Positions 14,026-22,546 of a stretch of 44,310 nucleotides of DNA are shown here, in pieces. Position 1 is the first letter of the stretch. Every line of letters begins with the position of its first letter. Source of the stretch: Vulcanimicrobiota bacterium (GTDB lineage: Bacteria > Vulcanimicrobiota > Vulcanimicrobiia > Vulcanimicrobiales > Vulcanimicrobiaceae); NCBI GenBank assembly GCA_019241305.1, contig JAFAXE010000161.1, forward strand, positions 1-44,310, written 5' to 3'. A model generated the notes under the pieces. The model saw only the letters and a list, made by a program, of their open reading frames with translations, did no database searches and was not told where the DNA came from. A program made the translations under genes and the position numbers.

Positions 14026-14742
14026 TTAGCGTATGGGCGTCGAAAGGCCACGCGGCTCGGAAAACGTCGAATTTGGAAGTGACGCTGGAAAATCGTAATT
14101 GTGGAACGTGAGCCGCTCCCGCGCGATCTTTCCGGCGATCCGGACGCTCGCGGTGGCTTGCGCGACGACCCAATACTTGTCTTGTCGCCAGAAGGTCAGC
14201 GTGCCGTGTCCACGCACATCGCCGGATACGGTCGAGTACGCAATGAGCCGTGGCAAGAAATGCACACCTTCGATCGCGACGCCCACGACCTGATACGCCC
14301 CGGCGCTCTCTGCATGCGGAGCCGTCTTAAAGACGTAGTCGATGACTGCGCCATCGCGATGCGTCCCGACGTAGGTAAAATCGTAATCCCGTAGACGCGG
14401 CGCGAGCGTGACGACATTGTAGCGGTTCACGCGGTCACGGATGATCCGGATCGATGGCATGGGCAACGGCTGGCCATCGACACTCAGGATCTCATCGCGC
14501 TCGTCCAGCGCGCTGCGGTAGACACGATGCGTTTGCGAGAGGTTGTGCGGGCCGACCTGTTCGACGGCGTATTCGAACCGCATTATCTTAGGGGTTCTCA
14601 AGCCTTCCATGGCGCGTTCGTATCGCGCGAGCACCGTGGTCGAGCTCAGAAGGACGACCGCTTGTCGCTCTGCGGCTTCTGCGCGCTGGCTGAAAATGAA
14701 CGCAACGAGCGCGAACGCGCAGGCGGCGGTGCGCGGGCTCAC
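14026..14742 (-). CDS. Secreted protein of unknown function
   Basis: This 238-residue protein was not recognised. It starts with an arginine-containing N-region and a hydrophobic stretch ending RAEA-AE, consistent with a Sec signal peptide cleaved near residue 23. The mature part is rich in beta-strand-like alternation and Tyr/Arg (for example RVNRYNVVTLAPRLRDYDFTY), and could be a LolA/LppX-like or beta-sandwich periplasmic protein; this is only an impression. The GTG start overlaps the alaS stop as GTGA, so it is probably the last gene of the long minus-strand run. It converges on the phosphatase gene with eight bases between stops. Confidence 0.7.
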   Translation of the reverse strand: MSPRTAACAFALVAFIFSQRAEAAERQAVVLLSSTTVLARYERAMEGLRTPKIMRFEYAVEQVGPHNLSQTHRVYRSALDERDEILSVDGQPLPMPSIRIIRDRVNRYNVVTLAPRLRDYDFTYVGTHRDGAVIDYVFKTAPHAESAGAYQVVGVAIEGVHFLPRLIAYSTVSGDVRGHGTLTFWRQDKYWVVAQATASVRIAGKIARERLTFHNYDFPASLPNSTFSEPRGLSTPIR

Positions 14743-17384
14743 GCGCCCAGCGCCGTACGAATCGCTCCCAGTGCAGCCTCGGCGCCCTCCGGTTTCTTGC
14801 CGCCGCCCTGCGCCTGTCCCGGTGCGCCGCCGCCTTTGCCGTCGACGAGCGGTGCTGCCGTCTTGACCAAATTGCCGGCATGCACGCCGGATTTGGTCAG
14901 GTCGTCGCTGACTGTTACGAACAGCGAAACGCTGCCATTCTGCACCCCCGCCAGTGCGATGATGCCCGTGCGAAGCCGCGATCGAATCGCATTGCCAAGC
15001 GTCCGCAGCGCGTCCGCGTCGACGTCCGGGACGACGGCGGCGACGAGTTGCCGTCCCGCGATCGTCTCTGCTCGTTTCACGTAGGCATCCGCATCGGCTG
15101 CGGCAACGCGCGAACGCAGCTCAGCCGCCGCTTTTTGCGCTTCACGCGTCTCGTTTTGGAGGCGAGCAATGCGCTCAGCCAACTCCTCCGGCTTCGTCGA
15201 TAGCGCTTCCGAGAGCGAGGCGAGGACGTTTTGCTGACGCTCGATATAGGCGTCGGCGGAGCGTGAGACGATCGATTCGATGCGGCGAATTCCGCTTCCG
15301 ATGGACGATTCCGAAACGATGATGAACGTTCCGAGCTCACCGCTGGTTTCGGCGTGCGTTCCGCCGCAAAACTCCTTGGAGGGCCCAAACGAGACGACGC
15401 GCACGCGGTCACCATAATCCTCGCCGGCCATCGTGATCGCGCCGGTTTTGCGCGCTTCGTCGATGGGCAGCTCGATGACCTCGCGATGATAGTCCGCACG
15501 AATCAGTTCGTTGACGCGCCGTTGCACCGCGGCGCGCTGCTCCGGGGTCAGTGACGGTCCGCTAAAATCGAAGCGCTGCCGGTCGATGCCGACCCACGAT
15601 CCCCGCTGCACGACGTCTTCGCCGACGATCTCTTTGAGCGCGCGCTGCAACAAGTGCACGGAGGTGTGTTCCCGCCGGATCTCTTCACGCCACTGTGGCG
15701 CGACGGCCGCGTGAACCCTTTGCCCAACGCGAAGCATCCCATGGACGAGACTTCCGCGGTGGACGACGCGTTTGCCGTTCCCGAGAAATTGCGTGTCGGT
15801 AACGTCGAAGGCGGCGCCGTCCGATGAAATCGTCCCACGGTCGCCGATTTGGCCACCCTTTTCAGCATAGAATGACGTGCGATCGAGGATGAGGTCCGCC
15901 TCGGCACCCGCCTCAATACCCTCGACGTGCGCGCCATCACGCACGATGGCGAGCAGCGTTGCGTCGGTTTCCAGGCCCTGGTAACCGGTAAATTGTGTCT
16001 CGTTCGAACCGCCGTCAGTCGAAGTCGTGGCTGCGCGGGCTGCCGGAACGTCCTCTTTCGCCACGACGACCGGCCGCTTCCGCAACGCATCCTCGCGACC
16101 GCGCCGGCGCTGTTCCTCCATTTCATGTTCGAAGCCCATCAAGTCGACGGCGATGCCCTGCTCCGCAGCAATCTCGCGTGTCAGCTCGGATGGAAAGCCG
16201 TAGGTGTCGTGCAGCGTGAAGATGTCTGTGCCGGCAAGCGGTGTTCCCGAAGCCTTGGCGGCATCGAGCAGCCCCGCCACCATCTCCATTCCGCGCTCCA
16301 GCGTACGGTCGAAGGCGCGTTCCTCTGCCCCAAGGGTCTGCTCGACGCGCGGGCGCGCTTCGATCAATTCGGGATAACCTGGACCTAACGAACGAACGAC
16401 TGCCGGAACGAGCGGCGTCAAAAAGCCACGCGGATACCCGAGCAGACGCCCATTGCGGATCGCGCGCCGAATGAGAAAACGGAGCACGTAGCCGCGATCC
16501 GTGTTCGACGGCGCGATTCCGTCTGCAATGATGAAGGTCACGGCGCGTGCGTGGTCGGCGATGATGCGCCGGCGAACGAGTTGTTCCGCGTCGTCGAGCG
16601 GCGTTTCGCCGACGTCGGGCTGCGCCGCAATCAGATCGAGGAAGAGGTCGGTGTCGTACATCGACGCCTTGCCGTTCGCAACGGCGAGGACGCGCTCGAA
16701 CCCTGCTCCGGTGTCGATGTTCTTGCGCGGCAGCTCTTTGAGCGAACCATCCGCGGTACGGTTGAATTGCTGAAAAACGAGGTTCCAGATTTCGAGGAAG
16801 CGGTCTCCGGCGTTCGGTCCGGTGTCGTGTGGACCGCTCGCGTTCTCCGCTCCCGTATCGACGAAGATCTCCGTCGACGGTCCGCAGGGCCCCGTCGCGC
16901 CCATCGTCCAAAAATTTTCTTCGTCGAAGTACGTGATGCGGGACGACCGCAGCCCGATTTCCTGTTCCCAAAGCCGCTGAGCTTCTTCATCAGAGGTGTG
17001 GACGGTCACGTGCAAGCGCTCGGCCGGCAAGCGTAGCCGCTCCGTCAGATACTCCCACGCGAACAGGATCGCTTCGCGCTTGTAGTAGTCGCCAAACGAG
17101 AAATTTCCGAGCATTTCCAGAAACGTCCCGTGTCGCCCGGTACGGCCGACGTTTTCGATGTCGCTCTTTGCGCCGGCGACGCGTAAGCAGCGCTGTACCG
17201 TCACCGCTCGAGGGACGGCAGTCGGCGCCTCACCGAGGAACACTGGGACGAATTGTTCCATCCCCGCGATCGTGAACAGCGTGGTCGACATCTCGGGCGG
17301 AACGAGCGTCGCTGCGGGCAGATGCGCATGTCCGTTCGAAACGAAGTACTCGACAAACGACGCGCGGAGTTCTTGACTGGTCAT
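14739..17384 (-). CDS. alaS: Alanyl-tRNA synthetase
   Basis: This 881-residue enzyme charges tRNA-Ala. The class II catalytic core is at the N-terminus (TIAGMEQFVPVFLGE, GRTGRHGTFLEMLGNFSFGDY). The editing domain keeps the zinc ligands in HTSVH and CGGTHAETSG, which clear mischarged serine and glycine. The C-terminal region has a coiled coil (about residues 700-760) and the C-Ala domain ending in GGGAPGQAQGGG-type glycine-rich sequence. The length is normal. The ATG at 17384 lacks a strong Shine-Dalgarno. It lies 72 bases downstream of the DUF2723 gene and overlaps the following secreted-protein gene. Confidence 0.97.
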   Translation of the reverse strand: MTSQELRASFVEYFVSNGHAHLPAATLVPPEMSTTLFTIAGMEQFVPVFLGEAPTAVPRAVTVQRCLRVAGAKSDIENVGRTGRHGTFLEMLGNFSFGDYYKREAILFAWEYLTERLRLPAERLHVTVHTSDEEAQRLWEQEIGLRSSRITYFDEENFWTMGATGPCGPSTEIFVDTGAENASGPHDTGPNAGDRFLEIWNLVFQQFNRTADGSLKELPRKNIDTGAGFERVLAVANGKASMYDTDLFLDLIAAQPDVGETPLDDAEQLVRRRIIADHARAVTFIIADGIAPSNTDRGYVLRFLIRRAIRNGRLLGYPRGFLTPLVPAVVRSLGPGYPELIEARPRVEQTLGAEERAFDRTLERGMEMVAGLLDAAKASGTPLAGTDIFTLHDTYGFPSELTREIAAEQGIAVDLMGFEHEMEEQRRRGREDALRKRPVVVAKEDVPAARAATTSTDGGSNETQFTGYQGLETDATLLAIVRDGAHVEGIEAGAEADLILDRTSFYAEKGGQIGDRGTISSDGAAFDVTDTQFLGNGKRVVHRGSLVHGMLRVGQRVHAAVAPQWREEIRREHTSVHLLQRALKEIVGEDVVQRGSWVGIDRQRFDFSGPSLTPEQRAAVQRRVNELIRADYHREVIELPIDEARKTGAITMAGEDYGDRVRVVSFGPSKEFCGGTHAETSGELGTFIIVSESSIGSGIRRIESIVSRSADAYIERQQNVLASLSEALSTKPEELAERIARLQNETREAQKAAAELRSRVAAADADAYVKRAETIAGRQLVAAVVPDVDADALRTLGNAIRSRLRTGIIALAGVQNGSVSLFVTVSDDLTKSGVHAGNLVKTAAPLVDGKGGGAPGQAQGGGKKPEGAEAALGAIRTALGA

Positions 17385-17456: not shown

Positions 17457-18944
17457 TCAGCCGCTGGGTCGAGCGGTCCACAAGGCGACGCCTGACGCGG
17501 TGCGCCGCCGTTCAAAGACAAACGCGGAGCTTCGCGGCGCGGCGGTGTCCCGGTCGAGAAATAGCATTGGGCGTCTGCGGAGCAAGCCCGCTGGAGCGTG
17601 CTCCAGAAGGCCCACCTCGCAGCACACGACCACGGCTCCCGGAACGCGATGTTCAACGTAGAACGCATAGGCGAGTGGCGCAGCATACGTAAAGGGTGCC
17701 AGCACGATGGCATCGCGAGGGATCGACGAAAGCACGGCCGCGACACCCATGGCGCTTCTTGTGGAACGATCCTGCGCGATTCGGGAAACGTGGGACGTAT
17801 CGACGGCAGCAATCCAGACGACGAGGAGCACGAGCGCCCCGCCCCAGATAGCGCGAACGCGCAGCGTCGATGAGACGACCCACGTCGACGACCACGCCAG
17901 CGCTGTGAAGAGCAACAGCAGTTCGCGCGGCACGTACCTGCCGACGTCGGATTCTGCGCCCCACGACGTCATGTACCACGCGCACGGAGCGCTCACGAGC
18001 GCGATTCCCACGGCGATGCGCCCTCGGCGTACGAGAAAGACGACGACCGCAACCACCCCCATAACGAGCGCGAGCGGTCCCAGTTCCTCGGTGACGAGTG
18101 ACGTGAAATCGTTCCACGTGCGCAGGATTGCGTGTGGCGAAAGCATGGCACGAAAGGCGCTCGGCGCACCGGAGGCCGCGCCCGTCGTCAGGAGGACAAA
18201 GTTGTGGAGCGTAGCGGGATGATGGTGATCGAAGAATTGATCGGGCTCATTCAGTCCGAGCGCGCGCGTGGGATCGAGCCCGTGCGTCGCCACGTAACCG
18301 CTGCGCAGCGGAAGATAGGCGTAGGCGCCCGCGATGACGATGCACGCGCACAGCGCGGGCAGCCATCGTTCGCTCTTCGTGGGCGCGCGGCAAGAAAAGA
18401 TCAGCGCGAGACCAGGTAAGGCGAGAACGGTCGAACTGTCGGTTGCAATCGAAAGTGCGTACAACGTCGCCGCGCTCGTGAGAACGTAACCATGTCCCGA
18501 TCTCACCCAACGAACCGCGAAAAAGAGAGAAGCAACGAGGAGCGCCGTCCCGACTTCATGAGCGCTGGCCGCGCCGGCATGCGTCCAGCTTTGGTACGTC
18601 GTGCCAAACAGAAGGGCCGCTACCGCGGCGGCAAGCGGCGCGACGTCCAACTCGAGGAGCAGCGCGGCGAAGGAGACGTTCGTCGCGGCGGCGGCTACCA
18701 CGCTCAAAACGTTCAGCCGCAGCGCCACGCTTCCGACGGGCAGACCGTGACTCCAGAGCCAACCGAGCAGCGTATAGCCGGGAAACCCCGGCGGGTACGC
18801 GATTCCCAAAATGTATGGTACCGTCTGGAAATCGCCGTAGTCCCCGAGATCCAAGCCGCGGTCGATCGTCGCCGCATAGAGGGCGGCGCTACACGCGAAC
18901 ACCGCAACGAGCAACCATCGCTGAAGCCCACGACGCGCGGGCAC
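17457..18944 (-). CDS. DUF2723 (TMEM260-like) membrane protein
   Basis: This 495-residue polytopic protein has the DUF2723 signature in its first loop. An Asp-rich DLGDYGDFQ is followed by LGIAYPPGFPGY and a helix pair. Relatives include eukaryotic TMEM260, an O-mannosyltransferase, and many bacterial proteins assumed to be GT-C transferases acting on polyprenyl-linked sugars. About 10-11 membrane segments precede a soluble C-terminal part (about residues 405-495). The GTG start lies 27 bases after the sigma factor stop. The substrate is unknown. It is the fourth candidate membrane transferase in the window's first half. Confidence 0.8.
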   Translation of the reverse strand: MPARRGLQRWLLVAVFACSAALYAATIDRGLDLGDYGDFQTVPYILGIAYPPGFPGYTLLGWLWSHGLPVGSVALRLNVLSVVAAAATNVSFAALLLELDVAPLAAAVAALLFGTTYQSWTHAGAASAHEVGTALLVASLFFAVRWVRSGHGYVLTSAATLYALSIATDSSTVLALPGLALIFSCRAPTKSERWLPALCACIVIAGAYAYLPLRSGYVATHGLDPTRALGLNEPDQFFDHHHPATLHNFVLLTTGAASGAPSAFRAMLSPHAILRTWNDFTSLVTEELGPLALVMGVVAVVVFLVRRGRIAVGIALVSAPCAWYMTSWGAESDVGRYVPRELLLLFTALAWSSTWVVSSTLRVRAIWGGALVLLVVWIAAVDTSHVSRIAQDRSTRSAMGVAAVLSSIPRDAIVLAPFTYAAPLAYAFYVEHRVPGAVVVCCEVGLLEHAPAGLLRRRPMLFLDRDTAAPRSSAFVFERRRTASGVALWTARPSG

Positions 18945-18971: not shown

Positions 18972-19802
18972 CTACCGCTCCTGCATCACGGATCGTAGCT
19001 TTTCGAGCGCCTTTTGTTGCAAGCGCGAGACGTGCATCTGTGAGACGTTGAGTCGCTTGGCGATCTCCGTCTGCGAAACGCTCTCGTAGAATCGTAGAAA
19101 CAGAATGATCCGTTCGCGGCGTGACAGGACAGAAAATGCCCGTTCGAGATTGGCGCGGTCTTCCAACAGCTCGAGACCCGGATCGTCTTGCCCCACGTAG
19201 TCCGCAAGCGTGTGTGACTTCTTGTCGCCCTCGCCCGTCACTTCGGTATCGAGCGAGAGCAAGTTGTAGGCTTGGCCGAGTTCCTGTGCTTCGAGGATGT
19301 CCTCTTGCGACGCGCTGAGGTGATCGGCCAACTCCGCGACCGTGGGGGAATGGCCAAGTTTCGTCGTCAGCTTTTCGATCGCGCGGTTGACGCTGAGGTT
19401 CAGTTCCTGCAGGCGGCGTGGAACCTTCACCGCCCAACCCTTGTCGCGGAAATAGCGCTTGATCTCTCCGACGATCGTCGGAGTCGCATACGTCGTGAAT
19501 TCCACGCCCCGTGCGAGATCGAAGCGATCGATCGCTTTGAGCAGTCCGACCGTTCCCACTTGAATCAGATCGTCGAGCGATTCCCCCCGGTTCGCGAACT
19601 TGACCGCGAGGAAGCGAACGAGGTTGAGGTGCGCGACCACGAGTTCGTCCCGCAGTCGCTCGTACGTCCCGTCGTGGCCCTCGCCGCGCTCTTTCGCGGC
19701 GCGAGCTTCCGCAAAAAGGCCGAACGCCTCGCGCGCTCGCCGGCGATCCCAGCGTTCCTCGTCCTGCGAGAACTCGTGCTCGTCTTCGGCTTTCGGCGTC
19801 AC
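18972..19802 (-). CDS. sigB: RNA polymerase sigma factor, SigB/SigF group
   Basis: This 276-residue group 3 sigma factor directs RNA polymerase to stress or developmental promoters. Region 2 shows LVRFLAVKFANRGESLDDLIQVGTVGLLKAIDRFD (core binding), followed by YATPTIVGEIKRYFRDKGWAVKVPRR (regions 2.4-3.0). The C-terminal region 4.2 helix-turn-helix is QTEIAKRLNVSQMHVSRLQQKA. An N-terminal extension of about 50 charged residues is longer than in Bacillus SigB. Its ATG overlaps the stop of the RsbW-like anti-sigma gene as ATGA. The module is arranged antagonist, anti-sigma, sigma, as in Bacillus rsbV-rsbW-sigB. Confidence 0.95.
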   Translation of the reverse strand: MTPKAEDEHEFSQDEERWDRRRAREAFGLFAEARAAKERGEGHDGTYERLRDELVVAHLNLVRFLAVKFANRGESLDDLIQVGTVGLLKAIDRFDLARGVEFTTYATPTIVGEIKRYFRDKGWAVKVPRRLQELNLSVNRAIEKLTTKLGHSPTVAELADHLSASQEDILEAQELGQAYNLLSLDTEVTGEGDKKSHTLADYVGQDDPGLELLEDRANLERAFSVLSRRERIILFLRFYESVSQTEIAKRLNVSQMHVSRLQQKALEKLRSVMQER

Positions 19803-20206
19803 CTGGCGTGGACGCGTTTGGTCATCTGGAGGACGACTCCGCTTTGCTCCGCGCGGTACTCGACAGCGTCCATCAACGATTGGATGATGATGATACCGAG
19901 ACCGTCCTCGCTCCGCACGTCCGCCCGTAAGCGAACCGCCGCCCCCCCGCCGACCTCAACGGTCAGTTCCGTCAGAGTGGCTTCACAACGAATATCGATC
20001 TGACCGGGCGATGTTGCATGCCGTATCACGTTCGTGCAGGCTTCCGCAATCGCCAAGCGCACGTCCTCGATATCTTCGACGGAGAAATCCAGCCGGTTCG
20101 CCACGGCGGCTACCGCCAGCCGTGCAACCGCGACCCATTCCGCCTTCGCGGGGATTCGCAGCTCGACGACATCGAGCTCGGCCGGGACCGTCACGGGCTG
20201 ATTCAC
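19799..20206 (-). CDS. rsbW: RsbW-type anti-sigma factor, serine kinase
   Basis: This protein of about 135 residues has a GHKL-type ATPase fold. The N-box is visible as EACTNVIRHA, and an EDGLGIIII segment corresponds to the G1 region. In the known switch it binds and silences the sigma factor, and phosphorylates the RsbV-type antagonist to inactivate it. GTG 20206 is preferred because GAGGG lies eight bases upstream and it starts after the rsbV stop. An ATG at 20257 in frame would add 17 residues and overlap rsbV by 35 bases. It is coupled to the sigma gene by ATGA. Confidence 0.92.
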   Translation of the reverse strand: MNQPVTVPAELDVVELRIPAKAEWVAVARLAVAAVANRLDFSVEDIEDVRLAIAEACTNVIRHATSPGQIDIRCEATLTELTVEVGGGAAVRLRADVRSEDGLGIIIIQSLMDAVEYRAEQSGVVLQMTKRVHAR

Positions 20207-20222
20207 GAAAGCGGCCCTCGCT

Positions 20223-20567
20223 TCATACGAGGGCCTTTTTGGCGCTTTGCTCGTCATCGAAGATTCCGAAGATCTTCACGAGTCCGGTGATGTCGAAAAT
20301 CTTCTTGATTTGCGGGTTCGTGCAAACGAGGTTGACCGTGCCGCCGTGCTCTCGCACGCGTTTGAGGCCGCCGATGAGAACGCCCAATCCCGTCGAGTCG
20401 ATGTATCGCACTTTCTCGAGATTGATGACGAGATTGTAGTGGCCTTGATCGATCAGCTCCGTGATCGCATCCTTGACTTTGGGCGACGTATAAACGTCGA
20501 TCTCGCCGCTCAGCTCGACGACGTACGCCTCGTGTTCCGATTCACGGACCTGCACTTTGATATCCAC
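20223..20567 (-). CDS. rsbV: RsbV-type STAS anti-sigma factor antagonist
   Basis: This 114-residue single STAS domain protein has the conserved phosphorylation motif RYIDSTGLGVL, with Ser58 the likely target of the RsbW kinase. Unphosphorylated, it would bind RsbW and free the sigma factor. GTG 20567 has AGGAG four bases upstream, overlapping the TAG stop of the YtxH-like gene, so co-expression with that gene is likely. No RsbU-type phosphatase that would reactivate it is present in the window. Confidence 0.94.
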   Translation of the reverse strand: MDIKVQVRESEHEAYVVELSGEIDVYTSPKVKDAITELIDQGHYNLVINLEKVRYIDSTGLGVLIGGLKRVREHGGTVNLVCTNPQIKKIFDITGLVKIFGIFDDEQSAKKALV

Positions 20568-20574
20568 GCTGCTC

Positions 20575-20934
20575 CTATGCGGGACTCCGTTGTTTGAGAT
20601 ATCGCTGCTCGAGTTCGGCGCGATGACTGCGTGCGGCGTCTTGGCCCTCTCTTACGGCGTCGTCGACCGCAAACCGAACGTCGTCGACCGCCTTCGACCC
20701 GCGAGCGTACGCGTCACCGAGGTTCGCCGCGCCCTCGGAGGCCGCGGAGCGCGCTTGATCGCTGAGGTCTGCCAGCGTGTCTTTGGCCCGGTTCGACGCC
20801 TCGCGCGCCTTGGCGCGCAGGATGTCGCGCGTCCCATCGTCGTTCCACGGCCCAAGATACAGGGCCAGGGCACCGCCGACGACCGCACCCAGCGCAAGCC
20901 CTCCTGCGAACGCGACTCCGCCGCGGCCTGGCAT
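20575..20934 (-). CDS. YtxH-like general stress protein
   Basis: This 119-residue protein has one glycine/alanine-rich membrane helix near the N-terminus (about residues 7-27, GGLALGAVVGGALALYLGP). A long polar amphipathic helix of alanine, aspartate, arginine and serine follows (about 35-110). That architecture is typical of YtxH, a SigB-controlled general stress protein of Bacillus of unknown mechanism. It lies between a DUF948 gene and rsbV with gaps of only a few bases. Family assignment rests on architecture and context rather than a diagnostic motif. Confidence 0.75.
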   Translation of the reverse strand: MPGRGGVAFAGGLALGAVVGGALALYLGPWNDDGTRDILRAKAREASNRAKDTLADLSDQARSAASEGAANLGDAYARGSKAVDDVRFAVDDAVREGQDAARSHRAELEQRYLKQRSPA

Positions 20935-20937
20935 CCT

Positions 20938-21345
20938 TTAGCGGTCCGATTCCGCGCTGCGATCGCCGCCGCGCATAAAGCGCCGAAGCCCCGCGGTGAC
21001 TCCGGTCAGCGTCGCGCCCACGTTGATGAGCGATGGCGAGATCGCTTCTTGAGCCAGCGTCGACGTCCGCGTGACGTTCGCAGCAACCGTTTCCAGGGAA
21101 CCGACGACCCCCACCAGCTTGGCCAAGGTCACGTCGGCCGTATCGGTGATCCCGCCCACGTGCGAAAGCGTTTCCGCGACCGGAGCGGAGAGGGAAGCGA
21201 TCTGACGGTCGACCTCATCGAGCGTCACGCCGACGCGCGTCAGCAGCGTAGCTAGGCGCGTACAGGCGACGAACACGCCGATCCCAATCAGCAGAACGCC
21301 GAGTCCGACCCCGATCGCAAGGATGAGCGATGACTCTGCCGACAC
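20938..21345 (-). CDS. DUF948 protein (YtxG-like)
   Basis: This 135-residue protein begins with a single membrane helix (about residues 8-28, LILAIGVGLGVLLIGIGVFV). A long heptad-like helical region with repeated Thr/Ala/Leu follows (LATLLTRVGVTLDEVDRQIASL, ISPSLINVGATLTGVTAG). This matches DUF948, whose Bacillus member YtxG is encoded directly next to YtxH. GTG 21345 is the natural start just before the helix. It lies three bases upstream of the YtxH-like gene and begins the stress subcluster ending with sigB. It is probably an inner-membrane protein with a cytoplasmic or periplasmic coiled tail. Confidence 0.8.
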   Translation of the reverse strand: MSAESSLILAIGVGLGVLLIGIGVFVACTRLATLLTRVGVTLDEVDRQIASLSAPVAETLSHVGGITDTADVTLAKLVGVVGSLETVAANVTRTSTLAQEAISPSLINVGATLTGVTAGLRRFMRGGDRSAESDR

Positions 21346-21385: not shown

Positions 21386-22546
21386 TCAGCTTGTTCCCAC
21401 CAACTCTGGAAAGTCACGCACGCCCTCGACCATGGCGGGAAGTCGAGCGATGACTTCGTCGATCTCCGCAGTCGTCGTCGTCCGCCCCAAGCTCAAGCGA
21501 ACCGCACCGCGAGGCTGCGCCGGGGGACCGAGCGCCGCGATCACGTGGCTCGGCTGGGCGGCGCCCGAACTGCAAGCGCTCGCCGAAGACGCGGCGATCC
21601 CCGCGAGGTCAAGGCGCACGAGGAGCGCGGCCGACTCGACTCGGGGAAATCCTACGTTGACGATCTTCGCAAGCCGCTCCGCTCCTTCGCCGTGGACGAC
21701 GGCGTCAGGGACAGCGCAGCGGATGCCGTCTTCGAGTTGAGCGCGCAGACGACCGACGCGTTCCGTGGTCTCTGGACGCTCGCGCTCAGCGAGTTCGAGA
21801 GCCGTCGCAAGGCCCGCGATCGCGGCGACGTTCTCGGTCCCGGCACGACGGCCGCCCTCCTGGGCGCCTCCGACGATCGCCGGAACGAGCCGCGTCCCCG
21901 CGCGGATGTAGAGCACCCCCGCACCTTTGGGGCCGTAGCATTTGTGCGCCGACAGGCTAAGGAGATCGACGCCGAGCTCATCCGCGCCTAGCGGAAGCCA
22001 GCCTGGCGCCTGGACCGCGTCGGTATGAAAGAGAACGCCGCGGCGCCGAGCGATCGCAGCGAGCATGCCTACCGGGGCAACCGTGCCGATCTCGTTGTTC
22101 GCGAGCGCGATCGATGCGAGCACCGTATCGTCCCGCAGCGCGTCGGCAAATGCGTCGGGATCGACTCGGCCTGCGCGATCGACGGGAAGAACCGTCAGCG
22201 ACCACCCTTCTTCATGGAGCGCCTCCATCGCGCGCAACACGGAATGGTGTTCGGTCGCCGCCGTCACGAGATGGCGACCGCGAAGCGCGCGCGCGACGCC
22301 GAAGATCGCAAGGTTGTTCGCTTCTGAACCGCCGGCGGTAAAGACGATCTCGCGGGGATGCACTCGCAGAACTGCGGCGACGCGTTGACGCGCGTCGTCG
22401 ACGACTGCACGAGCGCGCCGGCCTTCCGTATGCAGTGAACTCGGATTGTCGGCGGCACCGTTCAGAAGTGGAAGCATCGCCTCCACGGCCTCGGGCCGGC
22501 ACGGCGTCGTCGCGGCGTGATCGAGATAGATGCGCTGATCGTTCAC
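21386..22546 (-). CDS. Cysteine desulfurase (IscS/NifS family)
   Basis: This 386-residue PLP enzyme removes sulfur from cysteine as a persulfide for Fe-S clusters or tRNA thiolation. Visible residues are His100/His101, Asp176 (HTDAVQA), the PLP lysine Lys202 (SLSAHKCYGPKG) and the catalytic Cys325 in SSASACSSG, the longer group I loop typical of IscS/NifS. The GTG start overlaps the rarA stop as GTGA. No IscU, SufU or MnmA gene is next to it, so its acceptor is not shown by context. Confidence 0.94.
   Translation of the reverse strand: MNDQRIYLDHAATTPCRPEAVEAMLPLLNGAADNPSSLHTEGRRARAVVDDARQRVAAVLRVHPREIVFTAGGSEANNLAIFGVARALRGRHLVTAATEHHSVLRAMEALHEEGWSLTVLPVDRAGRVDPDAFADALRDDTVLASIALANNEIGTVAPVGMLAAIARRRGVLFHTDAVQAPGWLPLGADELGVDLLSLSAHKCYGPKGAGVLYIRAGTRLVPAIVGGAQEGGRRAGTENVAAIAGLATALELAERERPETTERVGRLRAQLEDGIRCAVPDAVVHGEGAERLAKIVNVGFPRVESAALLVRLDLAGIAASSASACSSGAAQPSHVIAALGPPAQPRGAVRLSLGRTTTTAEIDEVIARLPAMVEGVRDFPELVGTS

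Follow-up and report, generated by a model that had tools for sequence, protein, structure and literature searches.

The window analyzed here, a 44,310-nt stretch of a Vulcanimicrobiota genome (2.8 Mb in 227 contigs) whose family we infer to be that of Vulcanimicrobium alpinum (phylum Vulcanimicrobiota), places genes for a DUF948 protein and a YtxH-like protein at the head of an rsbV-rsbW-sigB module. Does this pair feed stress into the partner switch, or is it controlled by the switch? The initial annotation, which proposed both options, described the Bacillus counterparts YtxG (DUF948) and YtxH as SigB-controlled proteins of unknown mechanism encoded away from sigB. PMC7824861 indeed counts both genes among the SigB regulon of B. 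subtilis, and DUF948 lies apart from rsb/sigB in Bacilli (0/10 loci with linkage within about 1.5 kb), whereas in the window the DUF948-YtxH pair heads the operon. The description of YtxG as a protein of unknown mechanism is outdated: FacZ (YtxG) has a role in division-site placement and prevents misplaced division in Staphylococcus aureus and Bacillus subtilis, according to PMC10914604. Linkage of DUF948-YtxH to rsb-sigB is undescribed in titles and abstract openings among the matches listed, which come mainly from the open-access literature.

Layout of the block in the window

A block of five genes, encoding a DUF948 protein, a YtxH-like protein, RsbV, RsbW, and a SigB-family sigma factor, is confirmed on the minus strand at 18972-21345, with iscS upstream and alaS downstream as landmarks (Table 1). 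The tight linkage first noticed from the sequence holds: gaps of 3, 7, and 16 nt separate DUF948, ytxH, rsbV, and rsbW in turn, rsbW and sigB overlap by 4 nt, and 40 nt lie between the end of iscS and the start of DUF948. The upstream order is an lptA-like gene, rarA, and iscS. The listed rsbW ORF begins at 20257; its start was placed at the GTG at 20206 because this agrees with the starts of relatives.

Table 1. Features of the block and its surroundings in the window
Feature	Coordinates	Strand	Evidence and remarks
iscS/nifS-type cysteine desulfurase	21386..22546	-	PF00266, 239 bits; upstream neighbor, context
SigB-like promoter candidate	21392..21417	-	inside iscS 3' end; GTGACT (21417-21412), 13 nt, GGGAAC (21398-21393)
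DUF948 (YtxG/FacZ-like), 135 aa	20938..21345	-	PF06103, 23.1 bits (cut-off 37.2); class synteny
YtxH-like protein, 119 aa	20575..20934	-	PF12732, 29.3 bits (cut-off 37.5)
RsbV-type STAS anti-anti-sigma factor	20223..20567	-	PF01740, 87.6 bits (cut-off 22.6); TIGR00377, 107 bits; Ser in DSTGLG
RsbW-type anti-sigma factor	19799..20206	-	HATPase_c_2 PF13581, 75.8 bits (cut-off 27.4)
SigB/SigF/SigG-family sigma factor	18972..19802	-	NCBIfam SigBFG TIGR02980, 289.7 bits (cut-off 234.35)
TMEM260-like membrane protein	17457..18944	-	PF11028, 38 bits; between sigB and alaS, context, outside the block
alaS	14739..17384	-	PF01411, 608 bits; downstream landmark, context
Gene after alaS	14026..14742		LolA-like match, sub-threshold only (E 0.026)

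Family assignments differ in how they are grounded. The sigma factor contains Pfam sigma regions 2, 3, and 4, and scores 229.4 bits against the SigB equivalog TIGR02941, under its cut-off of 315. The RsbV protein exceeds the cut-offs of both PF01740 and TIGR00377 and carries a phosphorylatable serine, and thus belongs to the RsbV type. The DUF948 protein itself falls under the Pfam cut-off, and its membership rests on orthology because same-position relatives in 5/148 phylum genomes pass PF06103; the YtxH-like protein also scores under its Pfam cut-off. The former has a single N-terminal hydrophobic stretch (hydropathy 2.77 over 19 residues), and like FacZ/YtxG, a member of the same family, it combines an N-terminal membrane segment with a cytoplasmic tail. 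The YtxH-like protein begins with a hydrophobic stretch (hydropathy 2.07) followed by a charged, helix-like tail. The B. subtilis rsbV-rsbW-sigB and ytxG-ytxH genes resemble the window in protein families and in the RsbV-RsbW-SigB order; a SigB-type promoter motif may be a further likeness, the window's own candidate site being imperfect.

Two neighboring genes were also recorded. The TMEM260-like gene, which in the window separates sigB from alaS, follows alaS in 11 relatives. The relatives of the gene after alaS comprise 43 frames across the window and the fetched loci.

Conservation in the class and beyond

Within the phylum, alaS was detected in 142/148 genomes, and 60 alaS neighborhoods were taken: 42 from the same class, selected by genus spread and contig size, and 18 from more distant families. 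Twenty extra class stretches were added, ten of them selected because DUF948 stood apart from alaS. The class counts cover 60 loci from 59 genomes (two from G111); L041 and L042 gave way to L282 and L281, and L284 (G057), whose contig ends in the block, was left out. The block or part of it lay by alaS in 41/42 of the first class loci and in none of the 18 loci from more distant families, one of which had a lone sigma match. The single exception among the 42, G008 (L281), inferred to be V. alpinum WC8-2, carries all five genes in order, with a 13.2-kb stretch between sigB and alaS.

The five genes are complete and in order in 56/60 class loci, and the block is for this reason more than a chance arrangement. 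Two of the remaining four loci are cut by contig ends (G092 and G038), and two lack a recognized ytxH (G040 and G131). Counting at least 300 nt between neighbors as an interruption, we found none inside the block (DUF948|ytxH 0/56, ytxH|rsbV 0/58, rsbV|rsbW 0/60, rsbW|sigB 0/60); at its edges, iscS and DUF948 were interrupted in 1/58 loci, leaving iscS directly upstream (gap below 300 nt) in 57/58, and sigB and alaS in 24/57. The gene-neighborhood survey thus strongly supports a linkage that is class-wide and, as described below, also occurs in part of the Actinomycetota. Seven loci of the third family of the class (L073-L078 and L080) have rarA on the strand opposite to the rest of the cluster. 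RsbV and the sigma factor of L068 (G052) have diverged to an unusual degree, scoring 144 and 230 bits, respectively, against the window proteins.

A related block, DUF948-RsbW-SigB-alaS, is present in deep Actinomycetota. DUF948 was detected at E ≤ 1e-5 in 69/119 Actinomycetota genomes, and loci were examined in 60 of these 69. DUF948 stood upstream of alaS at the same locus in 56/60 genomes, 46 of them without an intervening sigma gene, and a SigB-family gene lay between the two in 10/60. Of these ten sigma-bearing loci, five had a recognized RsbW and five had iscS upstream and no recognized RsbW; no rsbV was recognized between DUF948 and alaS in any of the ten. An AI-2E-like membrane gene often precedes alaS in this neighborhood. 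In the Actinomycetota class of G268, a close sigma relative occurred in 19/36 genomes (four overlapping with the ten), with alaS after and an RsbW-like gene before the sigma gene in 18/19 loci. Among these 18, the RsbW-like protein lacked the N-box Asn in every case, rsbV was recognized in none, and 12 had a recognized DUF948 in the 1.5 kb fetched; the 19th locus (L350) has rsbV and lacks alaS. The Actinomycetota arrangement, rarA/iscS-DUF948-(RsbW)-SigB-alaS, therefore shares with the window its landmarks and the slot for RsbW and SigB, but differs in having no recognized rsbV in the block and an RsbW without the N-box Asn.

Elsewhere, no rsb or sigma genes were recognized near DUF948 in 20 loci (ten from Bacilli, three cyanobacterial, and seven further ones from the Bacillota sample). 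DUF948 is often followed by YtxH in Bacilli, and the pair is in reversed order, YtxH then DUF948, in the cyanobacterial loci L195 and L197. In six Actinomycetota genomes (L231-L236), DUF948 occurs a second time at a distance from alaS, and no block genes were recognized beside this copy.

The class sigma factors group as one clade (98/99); in the wider sigma tree, the diverged L068 sigma falls outside the class clade, beside a long branch. In a constrained tree that left out 17 of the 45 rows of the wider one, long or distant ones among them, holding all block sigmas together was not rejected (p-AU 0.48), and grouping the class with one Actinomycetota group gave p-AU 0.364. A single origin of the blocks of both phyla is neither supported nor rejected by the sigma tree, and we do not claim one.

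Promoter motif and RsbW ATP site

In 22/58 class loci, the motif GTG-N15-18-GGGWA occurs between 30 and 150 nt ahead of the estimated start of DUF948. Of 12,137 background windows from these loci, 0.58% contain it, and it precedes none of 379 starts of rarA, iscS, ytxH, rsbV, rsbW, sigB, and alaS; the patterns were derived from the same sequences they were counted in, and the relatedness of the loci makes the counts non-independent. The GYGT form occurred at DUF948 in 23/58 loci versus a 0.45% background and at rsbV in 1/60. The GGGWA core was present in 43/58 DUF948 upstream regions versus an 11% background, and also in 22/56 ytxH regions. The GTG form is missing in 36/58 class loci and GGGWA itself in 15/58. 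A Bacillus-like pattern, G[TGC]TT-N13-18-GGG[TA]A, was found in 10/58 against 2.95 expected from mononucleotide shuffles, with L060, L281, and L282 read on the wrong strand. L073 and L076 carry GTTT-N15-GGGTAT, close to the B. subtilis SigB promoters given in PMC7824861. Some class motif sites lie inside iscS and others across or past its stop, which favors a DNA element over a protein motif. No such motif was found within 160 nt upstream of DUF948 in the ten sigma-bearing Actinomycetota loci.

Upstream of position 21345 in the window, the promoter search yielded one candidate, GTGACT-N13-GGGAAC. Set against the SigB-type scheme (a GTTT-type -35 and a GGGWAW-type -10, about 13-15 bp apart), both of its boxes are imperfect, and a whole-window pattern scan that returned eight matches (3.19 expected) did not include it, its mismatches exceeding the limit. 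The SigB-like motif ahead of DUF948 in 22/58 class loci fits an autoregulated operon and lends the suggested feedback control by the switch support at the level of sequence.

Does the block encode its own kinase? With B. subtilis RsbW as motif reference, the N-box Glu is retained in 60/60 class RsbWs; the Asn is lost in 21/60, the G1 Asp in 12/60, and either in 25/60. Many class RsbWs may be active kinases, given that 35/60 retain both Asn and Asp and all retain Glu. On the AlaS tree of 42 loci, the minimum number of changes was at least seven for Asn, at least seven for Asp, and at least nine for either. The window RsbW keeps the N-box Glu and Asn and, unlike B. subtilis RsbW, has lost the G1 Asp, as well as the G1 Gly; its ATP-binding motif (Glu, Asn, G1 Asp, and Gly) is thus incomplete. 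It passes the HATPase_c_2 model and falls under the cut-off of the RsbW equivalog models (98.9 vs 145). Its predicted fold (pLDDT 87.3) is least certain between the G1 and G2 boxes, and the top PDB matches are B. subtilis RsbW (6m37 and 6m36). L258 has a 94-aa ORF where RsbW would be expected; lacking any Pfam match, it was not accepted as an RsbW.

A reading of the losses as decay of RsbW is not supported. Among relatives, ten pairs with two Asn-less RsbWs have a dN/dS of 0.06-0.27, which overlaps the 0.10-0.22 of seven pairs retaining Asn, both ranges being rough because dS was often above 1, and RsbW frames are present in 60/60 loci; the pairs L045-L282 and L049-L060 were left out of the comparison, L282 and L060 having been read on the wrong strand. 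The RsbV phosphoserine in DSTGLG is retained in 42/42. Four other HATPase proteins of the window genome (L001, L003, L004, and L005) retain Glu, Asn, and Asp, and two of them are PAS-SpoIIE-HATPase fusions, which could in principle both phosphorylate and dephosphorylate RsbV. A precedent is the SigF switch of M. smegmatis, in which, according to PMC7693655, the anti-sigma factor RsbW1 lacks kinase activity and a separate motif-intact homologue, RsbW2, acts as the kinase and phosphorylates the antagonist serine. In M. smegmatis, the gene for the antagonist RsfB lies away from sigF, whereas the window RsbV sits in the block with DUF948-YtxH.

The membrane pair as output or input

We lean towards reading the block as a self-contained SigB-type partner-switch operon in which the envelope pair forms the first two genes and the output is under feedback, with RsbV phosphorylated in trans where RsbW is incomplete; gene order, motif, and ATP-site residues make this account fairly plausible. 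The sigma factor would transcribe its own operon, and DUF948 and YtxH would be made together with RsbV, RsbW, and the sigma factor when the switch is on. RsbW would hold the sigma factor, and unphosphorylated RsbV would displace it. In lineages with an incomplete block RsbW, RsbV would probably be phosphorylated and dephosphorylated in trans, since in many lineages ATP-site residues are gone from RsbW but the RsbV serine has been kept; candidate partners are the genome's PAS-SpoIIE-HATPase proteins or free-standing RsbW-type proteins, comparable to the RsbW1/RsbW2 pair of M. smegmatis. The main role of the DUF948-YtxH pair would be that of an output under feedback from the switch, protecting the envelope or the site of division like FacZ. 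The likeness to FacZ has its bounds: FacZ's partner GpsB and its part in division were demonstrated for Firmicutes (PMC10914604), and the window protein scores under the Pfam cut-off.

Alternatively, the pair could be a membrane-bound input: DUF948 and/or YtxH would bind RsbW (or RsbV) and, depending on envelope or divisome state, keep the sigma factor held or let it go, a mechanism that would stand in for part of the phosphorylation. The deep Actinomycetota would then represent a partner switch without phosphorylation, with an RsbW devoid of an ATP site and no RsbV in the block, to which the Vulcanimicrobiota would have added RsbV as a second input. The strongest point for this arrangement is that Actinomycetota keep DUF948 beside RsbW-SigB where no rsbV is recognized in the block; combined with the Asn-less RsbW throughout one of their classes, this would call for another input there. 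The five genes are unseparated in all class loci counted, and both DUF948 and YtxH have a single hydrophobic stretch at the N-terminus, followed by a soluble tail. Yet two class loci keep the rest of the block without a recognized ytxH, and most Actinomycetota examined have DUF948 by alaS without sigma genes, so that DUF948 must work there without the switch. We regard an input role as doubtful.

A third reading, in which DUF948-YtxH has long belonged to the rarA/iscS-alaS region and the rsb-sigma genes are there by history and without a special functional tie, would suit the many Actinomycetota loci with DUF948 upstream of alaS and no sigma gene between, but is improbable, as the class block parts from alaS in numerous loci and never splits internally, and as the SigB-like motif precedes DUF948 rather than rsbV or alaS.

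The FacZ/YtxG family is fixed within a sigma operon throughout one class and is found again next to RsbW-SigB in another phylum. A link between the state of the envelope or of division and a general-stress sigma factor thereby becomes a concrete hypothesis. If G008 is V. alpinum WC8-2, the block is intact in a cultured, fully sequenced species, and its RsbWs form a natural series across the class, some having a complete ATP site and others lacking it.
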